Of a stretch of DNA of 36,442 bases, positions 186 to 2,302 are shown piece after piece. Both the position numbers and the translations under genes were made by a program. The number at the start of each line of letters is the position of its first letter. Positions within the stretch are counted from its first letter, which is position 1. A model generated the notes under the pieces. That model had not been told where the DNA came from, searched no databases, and saw nothing but the letters and a program-made list of their open reading frames with translations. The DNA comes from Thermoplasmatales archaeon (GTDB lineage Archaea > Thermoplasmatota > Thermoplasmata > Methanomassiliicoccales > Methanomethylophilaceae), in NCBI GenBank assembly GCA_012515075.1, contig JAAYZC010000059.1, positions 1-36,442 on the forward strand, given 5' to 3'.

Positions 186-193
186 AATATAAT
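186..193 (+). promoter_or_regulatory. TATA box of the CBS-domain gene
   Basis: AATATAAT centred about 29 bases before the ATG at 219. The earlier in-frame ATG at 192 lies inside this box and so cannot be the start of a transcript made from it. A leaderless mRNA starting near 219 is inferred. Confidence 0.65.
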
Positions 194-218
194 GCAGGGA
201 AGCTATTCGACCTCCATC

Positions 219-701
219 ATGACCCAGCTCAGAGTGAGGGATCTCATGACCACCCAGGTGGTCACACTGAAGGCGACCAGCACGGTCAGGCAGGCCACTA
301 TAAAGTTCGCTGTGAACAACATCTCTGGCGCGCCCGTGGTGGACGGCAAGAACCACCTGATAGGCATCCTCAGCGAGAACGACATCCTGAACCTGATAGT
401 GAAGTATCAGGACCAGCTAGGGATGGAGAACCCCGCGCTGTACATGCTGGCCTGTCCCATGGACGAGGAGATCGAGGATGAGAGGGTCAGAAAGATATCC
501 AAGGAGATCTCCGAGATGACAATCGACGAGATAATGACTACGGATGTCACCACAACCACTCCCGACACGACGGTCATGGAAGTACTGAAGATGATGGTGG
601 AGAAAGGTCTCAACCGGGTGCCCGTCCTCGAAAGGGGAGTTCTGGTAGGCATAGTCTCCCGGGGGGACATAATCTTCTCGATATACAGAAGGAAGGTTTG
701 A
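219..701 (+). CDS. Two-CBS-domain protein
   Basis: A 160-residue stand-alone CBS pair. The first CBS repeat spans about residues 5-60 (VRDLMTTQVVTL... GILSENDIL) and the second about residues 100-157 (IDEIMTTDVTT... GIVSRGDII), joined by a charged helical stretch. CBS pairs form a Bateman module that usually binds adenine nucleotides such as AMP, ATP or SAM and acts as an energy or ligand sensor. No catalytic or DNA-binding domain is attached, so the partner is unknown. I place the start at 219 rather than the in-frame ATG at 192, because the TATA box covers 192. The next gene follows after 13 bases, suggesting co-transcription, but the two functions have no obvious link. Confidence 0.85.
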   Translation: MTQLRVRDLMTTQVVTLKATSTVRQATIKFAVNNISGAPVVDGKNHLIGILSENDILNLIVKYQDQLGMENPALYMLACPMDEEIEDERVRKISKEISEMTIDEIMTTDVTTTTPDTTVMEVLKMMVEKGLNRVPVLERGVLVGIVSRGDIIFSIYRRKV

Positions 702-714
702 GAGGGGCGGTCGC

Positions 715-1476
715 TTGCTCGAGGTCCATGTTCTTGCAAGCGGAAGCGACGGCAACTGCACGGTCATACAGTGTGACGACCATGCGGTGATGATCGATGC
801 CGGGATAAGCTGCAGGCGCATAACCTCCCTGATGGACACCGCCGGCATAGACGGCTCGGTGATCGGGGCCCTTCTTCTGACCCACGAGCACACCGACCAT
901 GTATCCGGTGCCGGCGCCACCGCCAGGAAGCTGGGCATACCTGTAATGTGCAACGAGTGCACGTTCTGCCAATGCGGTCTGGGGCCCGTGGAGTACATCC
1001 CCATAAGGACCCTGGGCTCCTTCGATGTGGGTCCGATGAGGATAACCCCTCTGCCGATCTCCCACAACGCAGTGGAGCCGAACGCCTTCGTGGTGGAGGC
1101 GGATGGCAGGACCGCGCTGCTGGCGACAGATACCGGGAAGGTCACGTTCCAGGTTGAGCACGCCCTTTCTCGGGCGGACATAGCTGTCATAGAGGCCAAT
1201 TACGACATGAACATGCTCATGGAAGGCCCCTACCCCCCGAGCCTGAAGAGGCTGATAGGAAGCGAGGTCGGGCATCTGTCCAACGTGGAGTGCGGTGCCG
1301 CCATTAAGCGTACGGACCACGAAGGCAGGCAGATCTTCCTGGCTCACATGAGCAAGAAGAACAACACCACCGACATAGCCAAGGACACGGTGTCGGAGAT
1401 TACAGGAATCAAGAGGTTCAGACTGGACTGCCTGGAGCCCGGCGTCAGGAACGACACCCGCACCCTCAGGGCGTAG
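715..1476 (+). CDS. WalJ/YycJ-type metallo-beta-lactamase-fold hydrolase
   Basis: A 253-residue single-domain metallo-beta-lactamase protein. It opens with the LASGSDGNCT segment typical of the WalJ/YycJ group and carries the metal-binding motif THEHTDH (His57, His59, Asp61, His62), a further His near 117 and Asp near 139 (ATDTG). Bacterial WalJ relatives are reported to act on DNA as exonucleases; the archaeal substrate is not known, so nuclease activity is inference. The start is TTG at 715, preceded by GAGGGGCGG, 13 bases after the CBS gene. It is the only complete gene here that ends in TAG, and an in-frame TGA follows one codon later (TAG GCC TGA). Its 3' end overlaps the convergent GINS gene by 11 bases. 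Confidence 0.85.
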   Translation: MLEVHVLASGSDGNCTVIQCDDHAVMIDAGISCRRITSLMDTAGIDGSVIGALLLTHEHTDHVSGAGATARKLGIPVMCNECTFCQCGLGPVEYIPIRTLGSFDVGPMRITPLPISHNAVEPNAFVVEADGRTALLATDTGKVTFQVEHALSRADIAVIEANYDMNMLMEGPYPPSLKRLIGSEVGHLSNVECGAAIKRTDHEGRQIFLAHMSKKNNTTDIAKDTVSEITGIKRFRLDCLEPGVRNDTRTLRA

Positions 1477-2302
1477 GCCTGACGATAACGGCCTTCTCTC
1501 TGCTCACCAGGGCCATCGCCATCGCCAGCGGCATCATGACTATGTCCTCCTTCCTTAGATCGTAGTCCCTCTCGGGGCCGGAGAACCTCGGCAGGTCCTC
1601 CAGAATCCTTATCACGGCCGCATGGTCCTCGGATGCCTCCTCCGAAGGTCCGGCATCATCTGCGACCGTCATCCCAGGCTCGGGAGCCACCGGCACAACG
1701 TCCCCCGTGATCCTGTCAGGGAATTCCTCGAGGAAATCCTCTGGTTCATCATCAGGTTCCTCAAGCTCGGGCATGTCCGCGGGGCCGGGCGCCTCGGACA
1801 GAGTGGCCGGGGCCGTCGGTGCGGGGGTCTCCCGCATCTTGGGAGGCGCCGCAGGAGATGCCTTCTCCTCCGAAGGCCGCGAATCTATATCGGGGCTGGA
1901 GTACCTGGTCCCCTTCCTGAGGCTGTCCAGGATGCATGCCTGTTTCCTCGATGCCGCCAGGACCTCGGAGTAGTACTCCTTCTCCTCGGGAGTAAGGACA
2001 TCGATGCTGTTGTCGGCTCCCCTCGCGCCCCTCAGGGCCAGGGAGGCCACCTTCTGCATGCGCAGTTCCACGATCTCCATCGAGAGGAGCTTGATCTTCT
2101 TCCTGCGCTGGTTGACCCCCTCGCAGATAATGGAATCCGGATCGCGCGCCAGCTGCCTCTCATACTCCTTGCTGACGGTCGCGAGGAGATTCGACATGGA
2201 ACGATAAAGGTCCTTCCGGACGTTCGACAGCGCGGGAGCCTTCTTCTCGAGCCTGTAGACCGAGGTGAGGTCCTCGAACGTCATGGGTTCCGGCGGAGTC
2301 AT
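1466..2302 (-). CDS. DNA replication factor GINS (Gins51/Gins15 type)
   Basis: A 278-residue protein with the domain order of archaeal Gins51 (Psf1/Sld5 relatives). An alpha-helical A domain occupies about residues 1-115 (YRLEKKAPALSNVRKDLYRS at the start), followed by a small B domain at about residues 226-278 that reads LEDLPRFSGPERDYDLRKED and then leucine- and alanine-rich strands. GINS joins MCM and Cdc45/RecJ in the replicative CMG helicase. The two domains are separated by an unusually long linker of about 110 residues rich in Pro, Glu, Asp and Ala, which makes the protein longer than most archaeal GINS. AGGAGGT sits about 10 bases before the ATG at 2302; a second in-frame ATG at 2284 is possible. 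The ends of the protein support the call; the linker carries no recognisable domain. Confidence 0.8.
   Translation of the reverse strand: MTPPEPMTFEDLTSVYRLEKKAPALSNVRKDLYRSMSNLLATVSKEYERQLARDPDSIICEGVNQRRKKIKLLSMEIVELRMQKVASLALRGARGADNSIDVLTPEEKEYYSEVLAASRKQACILDSLRKGTRYSSPDIDSRPSEEKASPAAPPKMRETPAPTAPATLSEAPGPADMPELEEPDDEPEDFLEEFPDRITGDVVPVAPEPGMTVADDAGPSEEASEDHAAVIRILEDLPRFSGPERDYDLRKEDIVMMPLAMAMALVSREKAVIVRPTP

Follow-up and report, generated by a model that had tools for sequence, protein, structure and literature searches.

The metallo-beta-lactamase-fold (MBL-fold) hydrolase gene near the start of contig JAAYZC010000059.1 of a Thermoplasmatales archaeon (assembly GCA_012515075.1) ends with CTC AGG GCG TAG GCC TGA and thus raises the question whether TAG is its stop codon or a sense codon two places before the stop. 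The window, i.e. the whole stretch of DNA that was analysed, comprises 36,442 nucleotides, and the features of interest are the following:

192 to 701, forward strand: CBS-domain protein (Pfam CBS, 104.8 bits), a neighbour with a TGA stop
715 to 1482, forward strand: MBL-fold hydrolase gene, an open reading frame with a TTG start (Pfam Lactamase_B_2, 60.6 bits; cut-off 27)
1474 to 1476, forward strand: TAG, probably a pyrrolysine codon, in a column occupied by Lys or Arg in most sister lineages (sequence; 13 species)
1477 to 1479, forward strand: GCC, last residue Ala (alignment; GCC or GCG in all 13 species)
1480 to 1482, forward strand: TGA, the ancestral and probably the real terminator (same column and same 11-nt distance to GINS in g4, g5 and the g6 species with Lys/Arg; in-frame conservation ends here)
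1466 to 2302, reverse strand: GINS replication gene, Sld5-like and convergent with the MBL-fold gene (weak hit to Pfam Sld5: 20.3 bits, cut-off 22.3; codon alignment of ten species)

The MBL-fold product has 253 amino acids up to TAG and 255 residues if TAG encodes pyrrolysine (...RTLRA-Pyl-Ala). An earlier note, made from the sequence alone, was right that the gene closes with TAG GCC TGA, located at 1474-1482, and that reading TAG would add just two residues. The protein is 63-68% identical to its homologs in Candidatus Methanoplasma (scan of named genomes, 5 loci found), and its predicted fold matches MBL structures of the YhfI/ELAC type. The structure model (6-sequence alignment, mean pLDDT 80) has residues 249-253 as its last strand and places residue 254, the one specified by TAG, in a short tail just past it. 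The last codons of GINS (VRPTP and TGA) overlap TAG-GCC-TGA, with the GINS stop at position 1466.

Stop codon use and the pyrrolysine genes

An independent gene call reproduced exactly the window counts of the earlier note (42 complete genes, of which 38 end in TGA, 3 in TAA and 1 in TAG). It was made with a purpose-written simple gene finder (an inhomogeneous fifth-order model with dynamic programming), which for the complete set of 61 contigs (988 kb, 15 small contigs masked; assembly 78.6% complete) gave 820 TGA, 135 TAA and 13 TAG ends. TAG therefore ends 13 of 968 genes (1.3%), outside the range of 15-25% that the earlier note had set against its own reading. In two of these 13 calls the TAG is the usual in-frame pyrrolysine codon of an mtmB gene, and at most nine genes in the genome apparently terminate at TAG; non-coding sequence lies behind most of the nine, and the next stop follows 1-304 codons on (at least 10 codons away in six). 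TAG accounts for 22-23% of the three stop triplets between genes, in the other frames within genes and in frame downstream of stops, as against about 1% at gene ends (log10 P about -84), and the depletion is therefore strong, real and genome-wide. The single TAG among the 42 window genes fits a rate of 1.1% (P of 0 or 1 = 0.92) and would be improbable at a rate of 15% (P 0.009) or 20% (P 0.001).

The avoidance of TAG, which is thereby confirmed, is a trait already published for a gut relative of the same order: TAG stops amount to 1.6% in 'Ca. Methanomethylophilus alvus', which resembles the present genome in having a full pyl cassette, and to 11.3% in M. luminyensis (Borrel et al. 2014, PMC4153887). 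Within f1, the family to which this genome belongs, TAG ends 38 of 264 sampled genes (14.4%) in pyl-negative genomes and 18 of 665 (2.7%) in pyl-positive ones (P 3e-10), a contrast that is sharpened by a rough removal of the MBL gene from the pyl-positive count. The link between pyl genes and TAG is looser outside the family. In a pyl-positive genome of another family (G010, L191) TAG ends 5 of 17 sampled genes, so that pyl genes by themselves do not mean TAG avoidance. Of the close sister species G105 (L189:675-1430) and G104 (L144:1227-1982), one has pylS and the other lacks it; the MBL gene stops at TGA in the pyl-positive species and at TAG in the pyl-negative one.

The pyl genes that the earlier note had proposed to look for are all present. 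On contig C53, pylS, pylB, pylC and pylD form a consecutive cluster, and the four proteins score above the curated cut-offs (PylS 266 bits against 178, PylB 431 against 348, PylC 342 against 248, PylD 198 against 150). PylS lacks the N-terminal domain, as is typical of the short type, and its best match is the solved PylRS of that type. Directly upstream of pylS lies a tRNA-Pyl gene of 71 nt with the anticodon CUA (L001:1280-1350); it has an acceptor stem of 7 bp, a D stem of 4 bp, a T stem of 5 bp, the 7-nt loop CUCUAAA that holds the anticodon, and an imperfect, interrupted anticodon stem, a feature described for Methanomassiliicoccales (PMC3941956). It was missed by ARAGORN and, at the thresholds used, by Rfam, and would therefore escape notice when such genomes are annotated automatically. 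Both mtmB genes of the assembly carry an in-frame TAG, which in the one checked against structure sequences aligns with the TAG-encoded pyrrolysine position of M. barkeri MtmB. The release factor aRF1 is encoded by one ordinary copy. A second PylC-like gene, judged by eye, is found just upstream of mtmB (C53:59050-60186), besides the pylC of the cassette. The pyl cassette, the two amber mtmB genes and the rarity of TAG bear out the pyrrolysine-decoding lineage that the earlier note had suspected. The genome is that of a methanogen that decodes pyrrolysine and belongs to the Methanomassiliicoccales, in the neighbourhood of Candidatus Methanoplasma and Methanomethylophilus. With a Pyl-tRNA(CUA) always present to read UAG, TAG would have been purged as a terminator.

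The earlier note had described TAG as both avoided and backed up by a second stop, and only the avoidance proved general. Another in-frame TGA or TAA follows within one codon in 7% and within four codons in 15% of the genes that end in TGA or TAA; behind the nine apparently terminal TAGs the figures are one and three (the MBL-fold gene included), no enrichment over chance (3/9 within four codons, P 0.15). Because nearby stops are this frequent, the backing of the single TAG in the window is by itself unremarkable, and it becomes significant only through its conservation across species. This frequency also lends something to the simplest view of the locus, that TAG is rare through sampling or GC content and the nearby TGA a coincidence. 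We give that view practically no credence, given the difference between gene ends and unconstrained sequence, the 14% TAG in pyl-negative relatives of similar GC, and a motif that is common to 13 species (see below).

Two other TAGs of the assembly were considered. At C3:67021-68676 the TAG of a short gene is followed 11 codons on, with no stop between, by the in-frame start of a TiaS-like gene; read-through would fuse two proteins here, and a plain stop between neighbours is more likely. At C46:3235-3865 (L051) a gene for a HAD-type phosphatase has TAG at a position that is often Lys in its relatives (GDSPNDAAAA-TAG-NAGM). We do not claim it as a second pyrrolysine site outside the methyltransferases, because a frameshift lies upstream near a G run and the stop is absent from all relatives; the gene may be a pseudogene, the product of an assembly error or a pyrrolysine site.

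The end of the MBL-fold gene in other species

Homologs of the MBL gene were gathered across the order. The gene ends with GCG/GTG-TAG-GCC/GCG-TGA in ten sequenced species (the genome of the window and nine of genus g6), and a motif search recovered TAG-GC(C/G)-TGA at the end of the homolog in 13 of 102 genomes of the family, three of the 13 (G139, G140 and G141) being known by the motif match only. All 13 species possess pylS, which is split into two pieces in G083. At the equivalent place g4, g5 and other species of g6 have Lys or Arg, then Gly or Ala, then TGA; the 25 sequences without TAG that reach the column show 15 Arg, 5 Lys, 3 Ser, 1 Asp and 1 Trp. In g4, g5, several of the g6 species with Lys/Arg and the TAG species alike, exactly 11 nt separate the TGA of the MBL gene from the stop of GINS. 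This constant distance leaves no room for an indel and therefore identifies TGA as the same terminator throughout and TAG as a codon of the older frame.

The reading frame also appears to be maintained beyond TAG. Among the ten TAG species, TAG and TGA do not vary and the codon between them invariably specifies Ala; in-frame conservation runs through TAG and halts right after TGA. Silent sites, by contrast, have reached saturation (of 54 conserved fourfold sites in the MBL gene, 2 are invariant). Protein homology past TAG spans just two codons, and consists of homologous columns and the same TGA in the sister lineages; in other genera the MBL protein ends before the TAG column. In seven other g6 species the TGA has been lost and the frame runs on. 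In the pyl-positive g6 species G048 and G056 (L123, L124, L185) the MBL gene lacks the usual TGA, and its extension runs into a TAG with a TGA three codons behind.

We therefore had to abandon the suggestion of the earlier note that TGA serves as a safety stop behind TAG, since TGA is the ancestral stop, upstream of which TAG arose in a Lys/Arg codon. The comparison makes it probable that the TAG of the MBL-fold gene arose in place of a Lys/Arg codon and is now read as pyrrolysine, ahead of the original stop. The Lys/Arg codon two places before TGA would have changed to TAG probably in the ancestor of genera g1 and g6, and the ribosome would now mostly insert pyrrolysine at TAG, add Ala and stop at TGA. 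The retained TGA implies that ribosomes reach it past TAG; read-through, its efficiency and the identity of the residue we infer from comparative evidence. On the other side weigh the shortness of the tail, the continued use of TAG as a stop in some pyl-positive genomes such as G010, the ordinary aRF1 copy, the loss of the TGA in seven g6 species, the added constraint from GINS and a tree in which the TAG species are scattered.

The TAG might instead be a terminator at which the release factor competes with Pyl-tRNA, TGA being retained to catch the ribosomes that pass. The retention of TGA in all TAG species would agree with this, as would the up to nine genes of the genome that appear to end at TAG and the fact that the tail is dispensable in other genera, for a protein released at TAG should then work as well. 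However, the other TAG ends show no enrichment of backup stops, TGA predates TAG and was therefore not added as a backup, and TAG has been kept although a change to a sense codon, silent in GINS, would just restore the ancestral ending. We consider this alternative unlikely and prefer decoding as pyrrolysine.

The overlapping GINS frame and the history of the TAG column

The convergent GINS gene offers another explanation, in which TAG simply terminates the MBL gene and the needs of GINS are the sole cause for the conservation of TAG-GCN-TGA. The GINS C-terminus, (V/I)RPTP, indeed coincides with the motif and varies little among the TAG species. Yet the A of TAG falls on the wobble position of a GINS Pro codon, which is CCT in all ten TAG species although CCT accounts for 10.3% of Pro codons, and the G of TGA, at the wobble position of GINS Val/Ile, is invariant nonetheless. 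Opposite the T of TAG, GINS has Thr in the TAG species and Ser, Gly, Ala or other residues elsewhere, so that Thr is not required. In G100 the GINS Arg has changed to Thr while the MBL frame retains GCG TGA, and GINS does not force the TGA because seven g6 species have lost it. The overlapping frame adds constraint on these bases but leaves the conservation of TAG and TGA unexplained, and as a sufficient cause it is very improbable.

In a maximum-likelihood tree of 77 MBL proteins TAG species branch both basally and internally in the g1+g6 group, with the Lys/Arg species nested. They do not form one clade, and 2-4 changes are needed (support is moderate). The column might thus have seen about three changes, either a single gain of TAG that was twice reversed to Lys/Arg or several separate gains; under both histories TAG and Lys/Arg codons would exchange at this position.

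A candidate pyrrolysine site outside the methyltransferases

The MBL-fold gene thus offers a candidate site for pyrrolysine that is conserved and does not belong to a methylamine methyltransferase. In the same cell TAG is read as pyrrolysine in the in-frame amber genes of the MtmB, MtbB and MttB type (here two copies of mtmB). The pyrrolysine of these methyltransferases is internal and located at the active site; the TAG of the MBL gene, in contrast, is next to last, follows the final strand of the predicted structure and alternates with Lys/Arg. From 'Ca. M. alvus', too, TAG codons absent from relatives are known in genes other than those of methyltransferases; 16 pyrrolysine candidates were listed there, this MBL protein not being among them by name (Borrel et al. 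2014, PMC4153887). The method of that study needed similarity past TAG, so that a two-codon tail would escape it, and half of its candidates had homologs without the amber codon in the other two genomes, unlike the TAG described here, which is common to 13 species (PMC4153887). Among the accessible published pyrrolysine predictions the MBL-fold protein was not found.

A neutral appearance of pyrrolysine in tRNA-His guanylyltransferase was reportedly described by Heinemann et al. in 2009. The present case is similar in that TAG would have arisen in a gene without need for pyrrolysine and been tolerated because it is suppressed; it differs in that TAG persists across two genera, which is not expected of recent neutral cases. 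In 2025, archaea are said to have been reported that read all TAG codons as pyrrolysine. Judging from the two-residue tail, which is absent in other genera, pyrrolysine in the MBL-fold protein may be merely tolerated. That a C-terminal Pyl-Ala is useful in itself and kept by selection across two genera, tying the MBL-fold enzyme to the pyl cassette, is a possibility that we put forward only tentatively.

What is new is a non-methyltransferase TAG that can be traced through 13 species, with a readable history from a Lys/Arg codon to TAG and with the original TGA retained. A TAG so near the end of a gene belongs to a class of sites missed by searches that require similarity past TAG. The accessible published cases outside the methyltransferases are mostly confined to single species and may be neutral, whereas a conserved case allows a test of whether pyrrolysine in ordinary proteins is tolerated or selected. 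The pyl-positive and pyl-negative genera of this family represent a natural experiment on the loss and regain of a stop codon.
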